Below the pieces are notes generated by a model. The model made no database searches, was not told the DNA's origin, and saw only the letters and a program-made list of their open reading frames with translations. This document shows positions 19,030-40,941 of a stretch of DNA of 47,574 nucleotides, piece after piece. The stretch comes from an uncultured Erysipelotrichaceae bacterium (GTDB lineage Bacteria > Bacillota_I > Bacilli_A > RFN20 > CAG-826): contig CACZZG010000005.1 in the NCBI GenBank assembly GCA_902785645.1, forward strand, positions 1 to 47,574, given 5' to 3'. The position numbers and the translations under genes are program-made. Position 1 is the stretch's first letter; each line of letters begins with the position of its first letter.

Positions 19030-20628
19030 ATGAAAAAACTTTTATCAATCATTGCACCTATCGCTTTATTATCCACATTAGCTATGGGCGGCTGTGCCAA
19101 AGGTTTAGGCCCTGCCGATACAGATAATGTCGATGTAACAGTGGATACAAGAGGTGCCACAATTAGCTTCTGGACAGGTTTTGGAACGTCCATTAGTGAC
19201 AAATTAAAAGAAATCGTCGCTGATTTCTCTGCTAAAACTGGTATCACAGTTGAATACGAATCAAAAGGTGGATATCCAAACCTTCAAACCGCTATTAACT
19301 TATCAGTTACAAAGAAAGAATTCCCAAATGTTGCTGTTGGTTATCCAGATCACTTTGCTGGTTATGTTAACAGTAATATTCAATTACGTCTTGATGGTCT
19401 CATCAAGAACGATGAAAAACGTAAATCCGATAAGAAAGATGAAAATGGTCATGACGCCGATGCCGATGGCATTAGATTATTAGACTATTCCAATTTCTAT
19501 AAAGATTACACAAAAGAAAACGAATCATTAGAATTTAAAGCCGATGGTACAGGCTATGTCTTAGGCTTACCATTCAACAAATCTAGTGAAGGTATGGCAG
19601 TCAACAAAACATTCTTTGATTGGTTCGCCACACAAGAAGCATACAAAGATAAAATCTTTGTTCCAACAACATGGGGCGAAGTTAAATCCGTTGGTTTAGC
19701 CGTTAAAGACTTCTTTGCAACAAAAGGTGTCTATGGACATATTTTAGCAAGCGATGGCAATGTCTATGATGATGAAGCAGGTATTCCAACTGGTCAAACA
19801 AAAGTTTATGATGCTACACGTGTTGCTGATGCTGATGCATTCCGCTTATTGTCATATGACTCAACAGAAAACCTATTCATTACATTAGTTAGACAATTTG
19901 GTGGTACATTCACCGAATTAGATCCAACAAGAACAGGTAAAGGTTTTGCTGCATTTAACGATGCCGATAAGAAAGATAAGACCCTAGCCGCGATGGATAT
20001 GTATAAAGATTTAGCCGACAAGAAACTCGTTGGTATTCCAGCCACTTTTGGTGAATCCTTATATTGCTCCACACCATTCTGTAATGGACAATCATTATTA
20101 AACGTTGGTTCAACAGCCGGTATTTACAATGCCATTCCACAAGGCAATGCCTTCAAAGTTAAAGCTGCTGCTATTCCACAAAACGAAAATAACCCAGATG
20201 GTGCTAAATTCGTTATTTCTCAAGGTACAAACTTAGCCTTATTCAATAAAGGCACTGATAAAGAAAAAGTCGCCGCTTGGAAATTAATGGTTTACTTATC
20301 ACAACAAGCCAATGGTAGATTTGCTGCCGAAACTGGTTATTTCCCAACATGTGAAGACGCCACCAATTCTAAAGAATATCAAGACTACCTTGAAAGTAGT
20401 GCTGATGCCAAAGGTATGATCACCATTGAATGTGGTCGTATTAATAAAGAAGTCTATGGTAATAAAGAAGACGGTTGGGTGAGATTCGTCGACCCAGCAT
20501 TCTTAGGTTCTTCCGCTGTTAGACAAGAATGTGGTTATATTCCTGGTTACATCATTTCTGGTGAAGTCGGAACCAATCAACAAATCTTAGACGCAGTCTA
20601 TAAGAAATTACCAGACTTCACAAGATAA
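19030..20628 (+). CDS. ABC substrate-binding lipoprotein, family 1, copy A
   Basis: 532-aa extracellular solute-binding protein tethered by lipid (lipobox AMGGC, C22). The mature start ATISFWTGFGTSISDKLKEI is the typical first strand and helix of family-1 sugar-type binding proteins. NLQTAINLSVTKKEFPNVAVGYPDHFAGYV is shared almost word for word with the next gene. Binding proteins of this fold are usually about 420 aa, so this one is enlarged. It lies 18 bases after the permease gene with an AAAGGA site. Substrate unknown; the operon's nuclease argues for nucleosides or nucleotides rather than a plain sugar, which is inference. Confidence 0.9.
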   Translation: MKKLLSIIAPIALLSTLAMGGCAKGLGPADTDNVDVTVDTRGATISFWTGFGTSISDKLKEIVADFSAKTGITVEYESKGGYPNLQTAINLSVTKKEFPNVAVGYPDHFAGYVNSNIQLRLDGLIKNDEKRKSDKKDENGHDADADGIRLLDYSNFYKDYTKENESLEFKADGTGYVLGLPFNKSSEGMAVNKTFFDWFATQEAYKDKIFVPTTWGEVKSVGLAVKDFFATKGVYGHILASDGNVYDDEAGIPTGQTKVYDATRVADADAFRLLSYDSTENLFITLVRQFGGTFTELDPTRTGKGFAAFNDADKKDKTLAAMDMYKDLADKKLVGIPATFGESLYCSTPFCNGQSLLNVGSTAGIYNAIPQGNAFKVKAAAIPQNENNPDGAKFVISQGTNLALFNKGTDKEKVAAWKLMVYLSQQANGRFAAETGYFPTCEDATNSKEYQDYLESSADAKGMITIECGRINKEVYGNKEDGWVRFVDPAFLGSSAVRQECGYIPGYIISGEVGTNQQILDAVYKKLPDFTR

Positions 20629-20639
20629 GGAGGTCTTTT

Positions 20640-22244
20640 ATGAAAAAACCTATAGTTACGACCTTATTATCAGTTGCAATGCTAGGTGGCATAGCAGTTA
20701 GTTCAACAGCTTGTAAACCAAGTTGGAGAAACAAATATGCTTATGACATTGACTTTAATGCTGATGTTAAAGGCACAGAAATTGAATTCTGGACTGGTTT
20801 CGGTTCCGCAATTAACGACGTTTTAGAACCAGTTATTGCTGAATTCGAACACATGACAGGTGTTAAAGTTAAATATGAAAGTAAGGGTGGATATACCCAA
20901 GTCCTCAATGCGACAACATTAGCAGCGACAAGTGGTAAATTCCCACACTTAATCGTTGGTTATCCTGACCACTTTGCTACATATGTTAACCAAGACATTA
21001 TCGTTAGATTAGACTATTATTTCCAAAATGATGTCAGAAGTTCATTTGAACCTGATAATCAACAATTCAAAATTGAAGACTTCTATGCTGACTACATGAG
21101 AGAAAATCAATCTATTGAATTTGATGCAGAAGGCAAACCTTACACCTTAGGTGTACCATTCAATAAATCCACAGAGGTTTTGATTGTTAATGATACATTC
21201 TTCTCATGGTGTGCTGCTAATGAACCTTCATACAACATTCATGTTCCTGCAACATACGCAGAACTCGATACAGTTGGTAAATCCATTCTTAAATTATTAG
21301 ATGATAAAGGTGTCTATGATCACTATCTATTAAAAGATGGTACTGTGACCACAGAACAACCAGAAAATCCAAAAGATATCGTCTTAAATTTAAGTGGTAT
21401 CTTTAAATGGGGAACTGCAGGCAAAGCTCAAAAAGACTGCTTCAAACCATTCTCCTATGACTCACAAGCCAACTTATTCATTACATCCATTAGACAAAAT
21501 GGTGGAACATACACTGAATTAGATAAAGAAACAAGAAAAGGTTATGTGGCATTTAATTCCCCAGAAACCGTCGATGTTTTAAACAAACTAAACACAATGT
21601 ATAATGACCAAACATTTGGCATTCCAGCTGACTGGAATGAACAAAACTATGGTTCCAACCCATTTAAAGCTTCAAAGACCGTCATGACTCTTGGTAGTAG
21701 TGCTGGTGTCGCAAATGACGCTCCTACAGGCAATGCCTTTGATATTAAAGCTGCTCCAGTTCCATATTGGGATGCCGAAAGAAAATTCGTCATTTCTCAA
21801 GGTGCTAACTTAGCTTTATTAGATAAAGGTAGCCGTGAACAAAGATTAGCAGCATGGATGTTATTAAAATTCTTAACCAAATACGCTAATGGTTATATTT
21901 GTTCTCAAACATCTTATTATCCAGCTTCTCCATACGCCGAATTAGGTGGTATGTGGAAGGGTGCTGATGAAGAAAAATACGTCGACTACGCAACATGGCT
22001 TGGCGATTCATTAGAATCACCAAACACCACAGAAAGAATTAAAGGTCAAACCGCTAATATTAACGTTGATTACTACATCAAAGCCACTGAAAAGTGGACA
22101 AAATTCGTCGATCAACCATTCCCAGGCAGTGCTTCTGTCCGTGAAGAAGTTGCTTCTGTTCCAAAATACGTCTTCTTAGATAAGATGGAACCACAAAAGG
22201 CCATTGATGAAGTATTAAAACAATTAAGAGATTACGTTAGATAA
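20640..22244 (+). CDS. ABC substrate-binding lipoprotein, family 1, copy B
   Basis: 534-aa paralogue of the preceding gene, with the same FWTGFGSAIND, YESKGGY, VGYPDHFATYVNQDI, PFNKSTE and FVISQGANLALLDKGS blocks. Overall divergence suggests an old tandem duplication. The lipidation site is weaker (SSTAC, C25: serine rather than leucine at -3). It follows copy A by 11 bases with AGGAGG. Two binding proteins sharing one permease core would let the transporter take two related ligands, or bind two positions of one polymer. Confidence 0.9.
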   Translation: MKKPIVTTLLSVAMLGGIAVSSTACKPSWRNKYAYDIDFNADVKGTEIEFWTGFGSAINDVLEPVIAEFEHMTGVKVKYESKGGYTQVLNATTLAATSGKFPHLIVGYPDHFATYVNQDIIVRLDYYFQNDVRSSFEPDNQQFKIEDFYADYMRENQSIEFDAEGKPYTLGVPFNKSTEVLIVNDTFFSWCAANEPSYNIHVPATYAELDTVGKSILKLLDDKGVYDHYLLKDGTVTTEQPENPKDIVLNLSGIFKWGTAGKAQKDCFKPFSYDSQANLFITSIRQNGGTYTELDKETRKGYVAFNSPETVDVLNKLNTMYNDQTFGIPADWNEQNYGSNPFKASKTVMTLGSSAGVANDAPTGNAFDIKAAPVPYWDAERKFVISQGANLALLDKGSREQRLAAWMLLKFLTKYANGYICSQTSYYPASPYAELGGMWKGADEEKYVDYATWLGDSLESPNTTERIKGQTANINVDYYIKATEKWTKFVDQPFPGSASVREEVASVPKYVFLDKMEPQKAIDEVLKQLRDYVR

Positions 22245-37308: not shown

Positions 37309-37942
37309 ATACGAATTAATTCTTTTTGATTTAGATGGCACTGTCGCGGACACTGATGAGATGATTGTCCAGACAATGAACATTCTTTACGATAAATATC
37401 GTAATGGTAGAAGAACTCCTCGAGAAGAAATATATTATTTCTCTGGGCCTCCTATATATGAAACGTTACAAAAAGAATTTCCTGGTCAAGACATGGAATT
37501 CTTATTTAATGAATTCGTCAAAGAATCCGTTAAATTATATCCAAAAGTAGTGACGACATATCCACATTGTAAAGAAACAATTTTAAATCTTAAAAAACGT
37601 GGATATAAAGTTGGCATTGTCACAAATAAGATGCATAACGCTACTGTTTTATGCTTAGGTCTACTTGATTTAGACAATTTATTTGATTGCATCGTTTGTT
37701 ATGATGATGTTAGTCATCCTAAACCAGAAGCTGAACCAATATTAAAATCTATGGAAATTGTTGATGTATATGATTTGAATAAAGTCTTATATATTGGCGA
37801 TAATAAAATTGATCTAGATACCGCGAATAGTGCGAAAGTTGATTGCGCATTAGTGACTTGGGGTCCACGTGTCTTAGATCCGAATTTAAAACCAACTTTG
37901 AAAATATCTTCTTATGAAGATTTAGAAAGGAAACTCGCTTAA
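37301..37942 (+). CDS. HAD-family phosphatase, PpaX/phosphoglycolate-phosphatase-like
   Basis: 213-aa HAD hydrolase: nucleophile motif FDLDGTVADT (D10, D12), helical cap, motif II IVTNK, motif IV YIGDNKIDLDTA. In B. subtilis the gene beside lgt is ppaX, a pyrophosphatase that works with HPr kinase/phosphorylase; position and family suggest the equivalent here, though hprK is absent from the locus and phosphoglycolate is an alternative substrate. ATG 37301 lies inside the end of lgt; a TTG at 37298 is also possible. The stop overlaps the trxB start. Confidence 0.85.
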   Translation: MHKYELILFDLDGTVADTDEMIVQTMNILYDKYRNGRRTPREEIYYFSGPPIYETLQKEFPGQDMEFLFNEFVKESVKLYPKVVTTYPHCKETILNLKKRGYKVGIVTNKMHNATVLCLGLLDLDNLFDCIVCYDDVSHPKPEAEPILKSMEIVDVYDLNKVLYIGDNKIDLDTANSAKVDCALVTWGPRVLDPNLKPTLKISSYEDLERKLA

Positions 37943-38853
37943 TGGAAAAATATGATGTTCTTATTATCGGTGCTGGACCATGTGGTATTGGCTGTGCTTT
38001 AAAGCTCCATGAAGCTGGAGTTAATTTCGGTTTAATTAATAGTGGAACTCCTGGCGGAAAAGTCAACATTGCTCCTCGCGTGGATAATTATCCAGGTCAT
38101 AAAGAGATTCCTGGACCAGATTTAGCTTTTAAATTCTTTGAAAGATTATTAGAGAAAAATATTCCTATCATTGCTGACGATGTTTTGGAATTAACAAAAC
38201 AAGGTGATATTTTTCATTTAAAAGGCACATATGGCGAATACGAAGCTAAATTTGTTGTTATTGCTTCTGGAACAAAAGAGAAGAAAGTCGGCCTAGCCAA
38301 AGAAGATGAAATGTTAGGTCATGGCTTATCATATTGTTCTTTATGCGATGGACATTTCTTTAGAAATAAAGATGTCGCAGTTATCGGTGGTGGTAACGCC
38401 GCGTTAAAAGAAGCCATTCATCTCTCACATATTGTGAAGAAACTTTACGTCATTCACCGCCGCAATGAATTTAGAGGCAGTAACAAGTTAGTTGATGAAT
38501 TAAAGGCGATGGATAATGTGGAAATCATTACGCCTTATATCCCAGTTGAAATCTTAGCGGATGATAAAATCACCGGTCTTGTTATTGAAAACCGTGAAAA
38601 TGGCGAAAAAAGAACATTAACCATAGATGGATTATTCCCATTAGTGGGACAAATCCCAAATACTTCATACATCAAGATTGATGGTGTATTAAATGAATGG
38701 GGCACAGTTCCAGTTGATAGAAGCATGAAAACATCATGTGATGGTTTATATGCAGGCGGAGATGTCTTACCAAGAGATATCAGACAAATCTATTTAGCGG
38801 AACATGATGGTATGGTCATCGCTAAATCAATAACTGAATTATTAAAACAATAA
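37942..38853 (+). CDS. trxB: Thioredoxin reductase-like flavoprotein
   Basis: Class-2 NAD(P)H:disulfide oxidoreductase of 303 aa. FAD site GAGPCG (10-15; the usual motif is GxGPAG), redox pair CSLC (C132/C135) in the YCSLCDGHFF motif, NADPH site GGGNAALKEA and HRRNEFRGS, second FAD motif GLYAGGDVLPRDIRQIYLA. It keeps thioredoxin reduced in the cytoplasm. It overlaps the HAD gene by one base (TAATG), so uvrA-lgt-HAD-trxB is a tightly coupled operon closed by a terminator. Confidence 0.93.
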   Translation: MEKYDVLIIGAGPCGIGCALKLHEAGVNFGLINSGTPGGKVNIAPRVDNYPGHKEIPGPDLAFKFFERLLEKNIPIIADDVLELTKQGDIFHLKGTYGEYEAKFVVIASGTKEKKVGLAKEDEMLGHGLSYCSLCDGHFFRNKDVAVIGGGNAALKEAIHLSHIVKKLYVIHRRNEFRGSNKLVDELKAMDNVEIITPYIPVEILADDKITGLVIENRENGEKRTLTIDGLFPLVGQIPNTSYIKIDGVLNEWGTVPVDRSMKTSCDGLYAGGDVLPRDIRQIYLAEHDGMVIAKSITELLKQ

Positions 38854-38855
38854 AT

Positions 38856-38880
38856 ACCGAGTAAACAGCTCGGTTTTTTA
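38856..38880 (+). terminator. Terminator of the uvrA-lgt-HAD-trxB operon
   Basis: ACCGAG / CTCGGT stem, loop TAAACAG, six-T tail. Confidence 0.9.
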
Positions 38881-38923: not shown

Positions 38924-39775
38924 ATGAAAGAACTATTTATTCTCTCTGGTCCAAGTGGAAGTGGAGTTTCTTCTTCGAAATTCGTCTTTGAAGAATTGGG
39001 TTTTTATGTGATTGATAACGCTCCTAGTAGTGTCACTCAACCAATCCTAGATGAATACGCAAATAAGAAATCTATGAAAGGTGTTTGCTTGATGCCGAGA
39101 ATTAACGGGGCAAAGAAAGTCTTAGATATCGCTAAAAAAGATCCAAGATTCCATGTCACCTTCATTTTATTAACTACAGAAAAAGATGAATTAATTAAAA
39201 GATATGCTTTATCTAGACATGCTCATCCACGTTCAATACTTGATAATATCTCATTAGAAGAAGCGATTGACTTAGATGTTAAAGAAACTTTATCTTTGGC
39301 TAATGTCGTGGATTATGAGATTGACACAACCAAATTAACTACAAAAGAATTAAGAATTAATTTATATAATAAATTACAAGGTAAAGATACTGATAATATT
39401 ACTAAGATCACATTCCTTTCATTTGGATTAAAGAACGGTATTCCTGTCGGATTAGATGCGATGTTTGATGTTCGTATTATTCCTAATCCATATTGGGTAG
39501 AATCATTAGCACCTTTAAATGGTGGAGATCAAGAAGTCATCGATTACATCATGTCCTTTGATGTCACTAAAAAGTTATTGAAAGATATTATCGATTATTT
39601 GGAATTTTATATTCCAGAAATGCAAAAAACAGGTAGAGCAAGTTACACAATTGGTATAGCTTGTAGTGGTGGTCAACATCGTTCCACATTTGTAGCGAAT
39701 TATTTAAGAGATTATTTTAAAGATAAATATCACGTTGAAAGTTATCATCGTGATTCCCCGGAATTGAATAGATAA
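38924..39775 (+). CDS. rapZ: RapZ/YvcJ-family protein with altered Walker A motif
   Basis: 283-aa member of the RapZ family; in E. coli RapZ adapts small-RNA-controlled GlmS synthesis, and in Bacillus YvcJ binds nucleotide. The N-terminal P-loop reads GPSGSGVSS (9-17): valine 15 replaces the invariant lysine of GxxGxGKS. The DNA (GGA GTT TCT) confirms it. The rest of the N-terminal domain (ELGFYVIDNAP) is normal. The C-terminal domain, the RNA/partner-binding part, is well kept: NPYWVESLAPLNGGD and IACSGGQHRSTFVA. Nucleotide binding is therefore probably weakened or lost. whiA starts 1 base after the stop. Confidence 0.92.
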   Translation: MKELFILSGPSGSGVSSSKFVFEELGFYVIDNAPSSVTQPILDEYANKKSMKGVCLMPRINGAKKVLDIAKKDPRFHVTFILLTTEKDELIKRYALSRHAHPRSILDNISLEEAIDLDVKETLSLANVVDYEIDTTKLTTKELRINLYNKLQGKDTDNITKITFLSFGLKNGIPVGLDAMFDVRIIPNPYWVESLAPLNGGDQEVIDYIMSFDVTKKLLKDIIDYLEFYIPEMQKTGRASYTIGIACSGGQHRSTFVANYLRDYFKDKYHVESYHRDSPELNR

Positions 39776-39776
39776 T

Positions 39777-40736
39777 ATGAGGAAAGAATCGTTTACTAGA
39801 CAAGTCAAAGAGGAACTATGTTCCAATGAATATCCATCCAAAGATCGTTTAAGAGCCTTATTAGCCGCTTATATACGTATCAATGGTAGTTTAGTCTTCC
39901 GTGATAAGAAGAGTTATTTGACTATGTCAAATGAAAACGCAAAAATCGCTAGATTCATCTATGAAACAATTAATAATATCTATGAAGCTGACGCTCATCT
40001 ATCTTTTTCCAATAAGAGCAATTTAGCGAAGAATACGATTTACACAATTGAGATTCAAGAAGCTAGTGAAACGATTATTGAAGATTTGGATATTTCCTTC
40101 CTTGAAGGTAAGATTTCCAAAAACATCGTGAGAAATGATGACACAATATCTGGTTATTTAGCCGGTGCCTTTTTAGCGAGTGGTTCTGTCAATTCTCCAG
40201 AGACAAGTAATTATCATTTAGAAATCGCCCTCAATAGTGAAAACTTCGCGAAATGGTTATCTAAATTATTCTCTAAATACCGTAACAGCGATATTGAACC
40301 AAAGGTTATTAAAAGAAGAGAACAATTTGTTATCTATTTCAAAAAGAGTGATCAAATCTCTAATTTCTTAATCATGATTGGTGCAGTGGAATGCTGTATG
40401 GAATTTGAAAATGTCAGAGCGAACCGCGACATGATTAATTCCGCGAATAGATTAACCAATATGGACACCGCAAACATGAGAAGAATTTATGATACGGCGA
40501 ATAAGCAAATCAAAGAAATTAAAGTCATAGATGAGAAGTTAGGAATTGATAATATCACCAACGAAAAAGTTCGTATGTTATGCAAATTAAGATTAGAAAA
40601 TGAAGCGGCTTCATTATTAGAATTATCAGAAATAATGTCTAGTATTATGAATAAGACCATTACTAAAAGTAATGTTAATCATTTATTTAGAAAAATACAT
40701 GAATTATATGAGAGGTTAGATGATGGACGTAAATAA
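39777..40736 (+). CDS. whiA: WhiA-family DNA-binding regulator
   Basis: 319-aa WhiA: N-terminal LAGLIDADG-derived fold beginning with the diagnostic SFTRQVKEEL, the GYLAGAFLASGSVNSPE segment of the second half, and a C-terminal helix-turn-helix (RANRDMINSANRLTNMDTANMRR). WhiA controls sporulation septation in Streptomyces and cell division or chromosome segregation in Bacillus; it is kept even in minimal Gram-positives. In Bacillus the order is yvcJ-yvcK-whiA; here the middle gene is missing and whiA abuts rapZ. No independent ribosome site of note, so coupling to rapZ is likely. Confidence 0.95.
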   Translation: MRKESFTRQVKEELCSNEYPSKDRLRALLAAYIRINGSLVFRDKKSYLTMSNENAKIARFIYETINNIYEADAHLSFSNKSNLAKNTIYTIEIQEASETIIEDLDISFLEGKISKNIVRNDDTISGYLAGAFLASGSVNSPETSNYHLEIALNSENFAKWLSKLFSKYRNSDIEPKVIKRREQFVIYFKKSDQISNFLIMIGAVECCMEFENVRANRDMINSANRLTNMDTANMRRIYDTANKQIKEIKVIDEKLGIDNITNEKVRMLCKLRLENEAASLLELSEIMSSIMNKTITKSNVNHLFRKIHELYERLDDGRK

Positions 40737-40941
40737 GCAATTAGGAATGAGAATCAAGTATTTGCGTTCCCTCAATAAATGGTCGCAAGAAGACTTAGCC
40801 TTAGAAGCGGGAGTGAATAAGAATTATCTCTCCGATTTAGAAAGAGGAAGTCGTAATCCCACAGTCAAGATTTTAGAGAAAATTGCAAAAGCACTTGATA
40901 TCACATTAGAAGAATTATTCAAAGGCATCCAAATTATCTAA
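40723..40941 (+). CDS. Small XRE-family transcriptional regulator
   Basis: 72-aa (73 if the adjacent ATG at 40720 is used) helix-turn-helix protein made of one XRE domain: [50 protein letters not shown]. It has no sensor domain. The start overlaps the end of whiA, and AGAGG (40711-40715) favours the second ATG. Third gene of the rapZ-whiA unit; a terminator overlaps its last codons. Targets unknown; it lies just ahead of gap, where B. subtilis has the unrelated regulator CggR. Confidence 0.85.

Follow-up and report, generated by a model that had tools for sequence, protein, structure and literature searches.

Valine substituted for the Walker A lysine in a full-length RapZ/YvcJ homologue encoded directly upstream of whiA

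What does a RapZ protein do once the lysine of its nucleotide-binding loop is gone? The question is raised by a gene at positions 38924 to 39775 (forward strand, ATG start) of the window, the 47,574-nucleotide stretch of DNA analyzed here, which codes for a 283-aa RapZ/YvcJ homologue. Its P-loop (GPSGSGVS, aa 9 to 16; 38948 to 38971) keeps the glycines and the following Ser/Thr but has Val15 (codon GTT; 38966 to 38968) instead of the Walker A lysine, and the open reading frame, the codon, and the domain matches all agree with the description of the loop (GPSGSGVSS) in an earlier, sequence-only reading of this DNA. The N-domain (Pfam RapZ-like_N, aa 3 to 154; 38930 to 39385) and the C-domain (PF22740, aa 161 to 277; 39404 to 39754) are full length and in order, and both exceed their curated cutoffs (63.4 bits against 25.4, and 126.5 bits against 27). 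The protein misses the NCBIfam RapZ equivalog cutoff (NF003828; 223.3 bits against 244), which just 26 of the 147 genomes sampled from the order pass. A second RapZ with an intact P-loop, the counterexample named by the sequence-only reading, was sought in the whole draft assembly (47 contigs, 1,171,691 bases), which gave this single RapZ match.

Upstream of rapZ is a trxB-like gene (37942 to 38853, forward; TIGR01292, 278.9 bits, below the cutoff of 343.45), and between the two is a putative terminator-like hairpin with a T-run (38856 to 38874, forward), a pattern match that does not in itself show function. Downstream, whiA (39777 to 40736, forward; TIGR00647, 252.8 bits) is separated from the rapZ stop by one base, and its end is overlapped by a gene for a small helix-turn-helix protein of 73 aa (40720 to 40941, forward; HTH family matches, all below cutoff). 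The Bacillus subtilis YvcJ belongs to the same two-domain fold family and is also encoded ahead of whiA, but it carries Lys22 and the next gene is glmR, whereas the window has valine and no GlmR gene between rapZ and whiA, as judged against the yvcJ-glmR-yvcL (whiA) operon. (GlmR is the name used in papers for the partner formerly called YvcK, and mgfK in the earlier reading.) That whiA follows directly had been correctly read from the sequence; the claimed absence of GlmR also holds, provisionally, since PF01933 (CofD/GlmR) has no match in an own-genome assembly that is 88.3% complete.

The lysine loss is not confined to this genome. We sampled 147 genomes of the order, 92 of them from the window's own family, and a RapZ C-domain is present in 53, all within that family (a weak match in a 465-aa frame of G058 was dropped as spurious). 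The P-loop has Lys in 32 of these genomes (among them G135, with a loop, GPFDSGKI, that has decayed apart from the lysine), Arg in 6, and Val, Leu, or Ile in 13 (the V/L/I group); two have no P-loop, one with a decayed N-domain (G118) and the other coding for a C-domain of 125 aa only (G068). The 13 include, as Leu, a gene of G028 that is split (L053/L054) and is excluded from the residue counts of 12 proteins given below. Named relatives add Ala and Asn at the lysine position; these 80 loci partly duplicate the sampled genomes, so we do not treat them as independent, and two (L188, at a contig end, and L185, from G028) were unparsed. In the rest of the class, 60 genomes matched and 59 were fetched (leaving out G171, E 2.9e-4, and secondary matches); 58 code for a full-length RapZ, all with GK[ST], and G304 for a C-domain only. 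Arginine also occurs outside the family, in a locus labeled Thermoanaerobacterales (L205), and is recorded at this position in Mycobacterium tuberculosis Rv1421 (PMC11229554). The Lys-free RapZ of the sequence-only reading is thus real, and its scope has widened to a clade-wide loss in which the position is V, L, I, A, N, or R.

On a WhiA tree of the 53 genomes there are at least five changes between Lys and not-Lys, a parsimony count that ignores uncertainty on a quick tree built from a single 320-residue protein. We read these as lysine losses because every class protein from outside the order has Lys. One change lies below a group of 15 genomes from five genera, the window's included (support of 94 in the quick WhiA tree); two genomes without a WhiA match (G087 and G122) are outside the 90-row tree. 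The gene is missing altogether from 39 of the 92 family genomes, and rapZ is therefore not essential there. We note that in one of these from the window's own genus (G129, L065:4891-6799) rapZ is cleanly missing between trxB and whiA with synteny otherwise identical, and that this genome has no GlmS match.

The sequence-only reading had set loss of nucleotide binding beside loss of mgfK (GlmR), and a linked loss is not supported. In all 53 family genomes whiA directly follows rapZ (the contig halves of G028 counted as one), and none of the 54 rapZ loci of the family has a GlmR-like open reading frame, many of these loci reaching only ∼1.5 kb beyond rapZ. PF01933 matches 6 of the 147 genomes, three of them among the 92 of the family; all three are of the Lys type, and their frames (581 to 587 aa) are on contigs other than that of rapZ. 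Outside the order, GlmR is directly next in 46 of 59 rapZ loci and whiA in 12, with Lys kept, and one locus (L103) has neither within 1.5 kb. GlmR loss is thus uncoupled from lysine loss, as GlmR is missing beside rapZ genes with or without the lysine.

The remainder of the Lys-free N-domain is under constraint. As reference we took the 22 N-domain sites with conservation of at least 90% among the 58 full-length proteins from outside the order; 12 of these are kept at a frequency of at least 0.9 in the V/L/I proteins (n = 12) and 13 in the Lys proteins (n = 32). Residues G12, G14, E23, L83, R93, R98, H101, P102, D134, and T135 are present in 12 of 12 V/L/I proteins, as is a Ser or Thr at position 16, and K15 is in none. 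In the window protein R93, R98, H101, and P102 align within RYALSRHAHP (aa 93 to 102; 39200 to 39229), and the first three are found in all 108 aligned sequences once that of Escherichia coli is set aside; P102 too is conserved in every sequence compared. Among the changes in the V/L/I group, A13 has become Ser in 11 (the residue that E. coli also has), E118 is Asp in all 12, D31 is kept in two, T97 in three (otherwise Ser), and R99 in two (otherwise His). The erosion at D31, R99, and E118 is not tied to the lysine, since the Lys proteins have mostly changed there too (retention of 0.38, 0.12, and 0.19, respectively). Mean retention at conserved sites is 0.79, 0.76, and 0.70 for the N-domains of the Lys, Arg, and V/L/I proteins, and 0.84, 0.85, and 0.78 for their C-domains.

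Relaxed selection on the N-domain after lysine loss was looked for in substitution rates and is not seen, either in dN/dS among the pairs listed or in the ratio of N- to C-domain branch lengths (50 proteins, WhiA topology fixed). This ratio is 1.92 for the V/L/I group and ranges from 1.08 to 2.02 in the other clades of the family: 1.08 (g17 with g14, Arg), 1.12 (g10), 1.20 (g11, Arg), 1.40 (g2), 1.76 (g5), 1.88 (g13), and 2.02 (g8, mostly Lys). The highest value, 2.31, comes from the Leu genus g6 when it is considered by itself. Among the pairs listed, N-domain dN/dS is 0.036, 0.074, and 0.077 in close Leu-type pairs, and 0.140 (against 0.068 for the C-domain) in the Lys pair G142/G110; in the Val pair formed by the window's genome (G000) and G123, of the same genus, it is 0.185 against 0.109, with dS near 1.3. 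The N-domain is thus under purifying selection in those pairs that are close enough to measure. It does not look dead; with most of its site kept, it looks re-tuned rather than broken.

The C-domain is well conserved, as the sequence-only reading had it, and its pocket is intact. The E. coli RapZ pocket is described as H190, T248, G249, H252, and R253 (PMC5737377); the window protein shares G249, H252, and R253, within the aligned motif CSGGQHRS (aa 247 to 254; 39662 to 39685), and has Ser for T248 and Tyr for H190, a position at which all 58 class proteins have Tyr or Phe. C247, G249, H252, and R253 are present in 12 of 12 V/L/I proteins, and S248 is likewise retained in the Lys-free clade. 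Three shifts accompany this conservation: V255T in 12 of 12 V/L/I proteins (one Thr among the 32 Lys proteins; Val or Ile in 58 of 58 outside proteins), D176G in 10 of 12 (D176 is near-universal in outside proteins), and G246A in 11 of 12. Given V255T and D176G, the ligand preference may have shifted.

A predicted structure of the window protein has a pLDDT of 89.8 and a pTM of 0.58. The best 16 PDB matches listed for this model are all E. coli RapZ, which is the closest solved protein both by sequence (153 bits) and by fold. The model's C-domain matches that of RapZ (5o5s) with a target-normalized TM score of 0.93, and its N-domain matches that of Rv1421, which comes second to RapZ itself in the fold comparison, at 0.75. 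Whole-chain TM scores of the predicted model are just 0.42 to 0.47 (rmsd of 12 to 15), which we read as arising from a different relative placement of the two domains. E. coli RapZ differs in having Lys14 and a basic RNA-binding tail, which we take to end KRKP, whereas the window protein ends HRDSPELNR, with PELNR at its terminus and no tail of that type. The basic tail is reported not to be conserved in YvcJ homologues either (PMC7525490).

The nearest experimental counterpart is the engineered K22A variant of B. subtilis YvcJ, which resembles the natural lysine loss seen here. K22A is reported neither to bind nor to hydrolyze ATP and to show no UDP-GlcNAc binding, and it still binds GlmR; in vivo it lowers competence, as deletion does, and the lysine can thus matter (PMC7525490). 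Rv1421 offers a second, natural replacement (Arg30), and its N-domain is reported to bind UDP (PMC11229554), so loss of the lysine need not end binding; arginine can contact phosphate, however, whereas the valine of the window protein is uncharged.

The reading that we favor, at about even confidence, is that the window protein is a full-length RapZ/YvcJ homologue turned pseudo-NTPase that retains C-domain sensing and keeps its N-domain as a scaffold or switch. Across the clade the lysine is replaced by V, L, I, or R (also A or N), with the glycine loop, S/T16, R93, R98, H101, and D134 kept. By analogy with YvcJ K22A, hydrolysis of ATP or GTP is very probably gone, and binding is doubtful, with nucleotide and UDP-GlcNAc predicted to be held weakly or not at all. 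The N-domain may be retained to build a tetramer, to bind a partner, or because its backbone amides and arginines still hold a phosphate ligand; tetramer formation is reported to require the RapZ N-domain, which those who solved the RapZ:GlmZ structure propose to be an allosteric switch with an unknown ligand (PMC9841335). Sensing of GlcN6P, or of a related sugar phosphate, would remain with the C-domain, and the E. coli C-domain alone is reported to bind GlcN6P (PMC7073468). Points against this reading are the competence defect of YvcJ K22A, UDP binding by Rv1421 with its arginine, the lineages that do without an N-domain, the somewhat lower mean N-domain retention of the V/L/I proteins (0.70, against 0.79 for Lys), the N-domain dN/dS of the Val pair, and the lack of rapZ in 39 of 92 family genomes. 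More tentatively, its output may go to a partner other than GlmR; whiA is the constant partner gene across the family.

A different account of the same N-domain is that the P-loop has been re-specialized for a phosphate- or UDP-containing ligand with no need of the lysine, leaving the N-domain a true allosteric input; we regard this as unlikely, albeit with several points in its favor. Retention of S/T16, R93, R98, and H101 in all 12 V/L/I proteins fits it, as do UDP binding by Rv1421, the C-domain shifts V255T and D176G (a change in the sensed ligand), and the E. coli Walker loop, in which a sulfate is reported to be held mainly by backbone amides (PMC5737377). Counting against it are the reported lack of stabilization of YvcJ K22A by UDP-GlcNAc (PMC7525490) and the range of residues tolerated at the one position: V, L, I, A, and N look like drift rather than a new contact.

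That only the C-domain works in the window protein, with the N-domain a relic on its way out, we consider distinctly improbable. Its best support comes from genes in which the N-domain has gone. In G068, a 125-aa C-domain gene (PF22740, 143 bits) lies between trxB and whiA, its ATG overlapping the trxB stop and its end just before whiA; in G304, from another family, a C-domain gene of ∼120 aa (L135:3076-3435, reverse strand; PF22740, 86.4 bits) has a GTG start behind AAGGAAGTG, with GlmR and then whiA downstream. Both stand in the same slot before whiA as the window rapZ (with GlmR between in G304) and have no N-domain. The RapZ C-domain can persist alone in some lineages, and from these two genes and the decayed N-domain of G118 the N-domain is dispensable there. 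However, G068 and G118 lie on branches of the WhiA tree other than the V/L/I clade, G304 belongs to another family, and the dN/dS values, site retention, and N/C rate ratio of the V/L/I group all speak for a constrained N-domain. The proposal of the sequence-only reading that the C-terminal function survives alone thus fits the lineages with stand-alone genes and is not supported for the window protein.

An assembly error, a pseudogene, or a chance substitution in one genome is barely conceivable even for a draft in 47 contigs, since the frame is open and free of stops, the codons at the lysine position in independent genomes include GTT, GTC, ATC, ATT, TTA, and CTT, the same-genus G123 also has valine (GTC), and three named rumen or omasum loci (one of them apparently the G123 contig) read GPSGSGVS.

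The sequence-only reading had named RF39-like genomes for comparison; the window's family, one of rumen and gut bacteria, is probably order RFN20, family CAG-826, not RF39. This rests on one linked genus in an older GTDB release: WhiA of the g13 genomes is 89 to 92% identical to those of Candidatus Fiminaster equi and UBA3207, whose genus is assigned to RFN20/CAG-826 in GTDB R06-RS202 (PMC8957277). CAG-826 is predicted to be peptidoglycan deficient (PMC10868615), and our check agrees with a wall-less family. The MurG profile TIGR01133 was discarded, since it matches every one of the 14 controls, even archaea, while its cutoff is passed by just 2 of 147 genomes; the Mur-ligase domain was used instead. 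Each of the 53 RapZ genomes has at most one such domain and the window's own genome has none; the one tested, from G123, is FolC (TIGR01499, 330.6 bits). RapZ is in 0 of 22 order genomes with at least three Mur-ligase domains versus 53 of 125 others, a comparison confounded with family and in which many genomes lack both. RapZ is thus retained by genomes that gave no Mur ligase other than a FolC-like one, which suggests a role that extends beyond peptidoglycan supply.

The own genome codes for GlmS (TIGR01135, 613.5 bits), flanked by open reading frames identified by eye as pyrG and glnA. GlmS is present in 24 of 32 Lys, 4 of 6 Arg, and 10 of 13 V/L/I genomes and in both genomes without a P-loop, with no link to the lysine state seen. 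A search with strict filters gave a glmS ribozyme in just one of the 147 genomes (G135, of the Lys group) and in neither the window's own genome nor any other V/L/I genome. With GlmS in most V/L/I genomes and the ribozyme in none, RapZ may therefore be a remaining means of feedback regulation of GlcN6P supply in cells with, apparently, no peptidoglycan synthesis. GlmS is in 40 of 53 RapZ and 15 of 39 non-RapZ genomes of the family; co-retention of the two is not claimed, as the tree offers just six supported independent pairs (sign test, median p of 1).

A broader proposal, rather unlikely as a whole, is that RapZ has lost its coupling to GlmR, nucleotide turnover, and wall synthesis and survives as a minimal sensor of amino-sugar phosphates that reports to its constant operon partner WhiA, in some lineages as the C-domain alone. 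Were this true, sensing by the C-domain would be the core of RapZ, with the kinase-like domain as an optional regulator. As to the role of the nucleotide in the N-domain, nature appears to have run the test several times, with V, L, I, R, A, or N for Lys and twice with a bare C-domain, and the Lys-free proteins could separate an N-domain acting as an NTPase from one acting as a scaffold. None of the titles listed in the literature searched concerns a Lys-free or C-domain-only RapZ.

Four g10 genomes without a detectable RapZ have open reading frames of 182 to 191 aa at the site where rapZ would lie, with trxB on one side and whiA on the other (L068:3084-3656, L220:2286-2858, L075:2098-2670, and L221:1262-1807, the last on the reverse strand). 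Of the two searched, one matched no Pfam family (L220) and the other gave one sub-cutoff DUF match (L075). Aligned with RapZ by hhalign they give E values of 0.13 and 0.028 in the C-domain register, scores that 15 to 93 of 500 shuffles match, and no RapZ is among the structure matches listed for a model with a pLDDT of 69. They are either decayed RapZ or an unrelated gene.

Amino-sugar and transport genes add two minor observations. The own genome (g1) codes for a GlmU-like protein of 335 aa (L248:2152-3159, reverse strand) that matches profile positions 3 to 328 of 452 (304 bits, below the cutoff of 366.85); the match likewise ends at ∼318 to 343 in G123 and eight g6 genomes, and is full length in g18 and g11, so the acetyltransferase part of the g1 protein seems to be shortened. 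Elsewhere in the window, at 19030 to 22244, two adjacent open reading frames of 532 and 534 aa are by eye solute-binding lipoproteins and lie downstream of ABC-transporter-like open reading frames.
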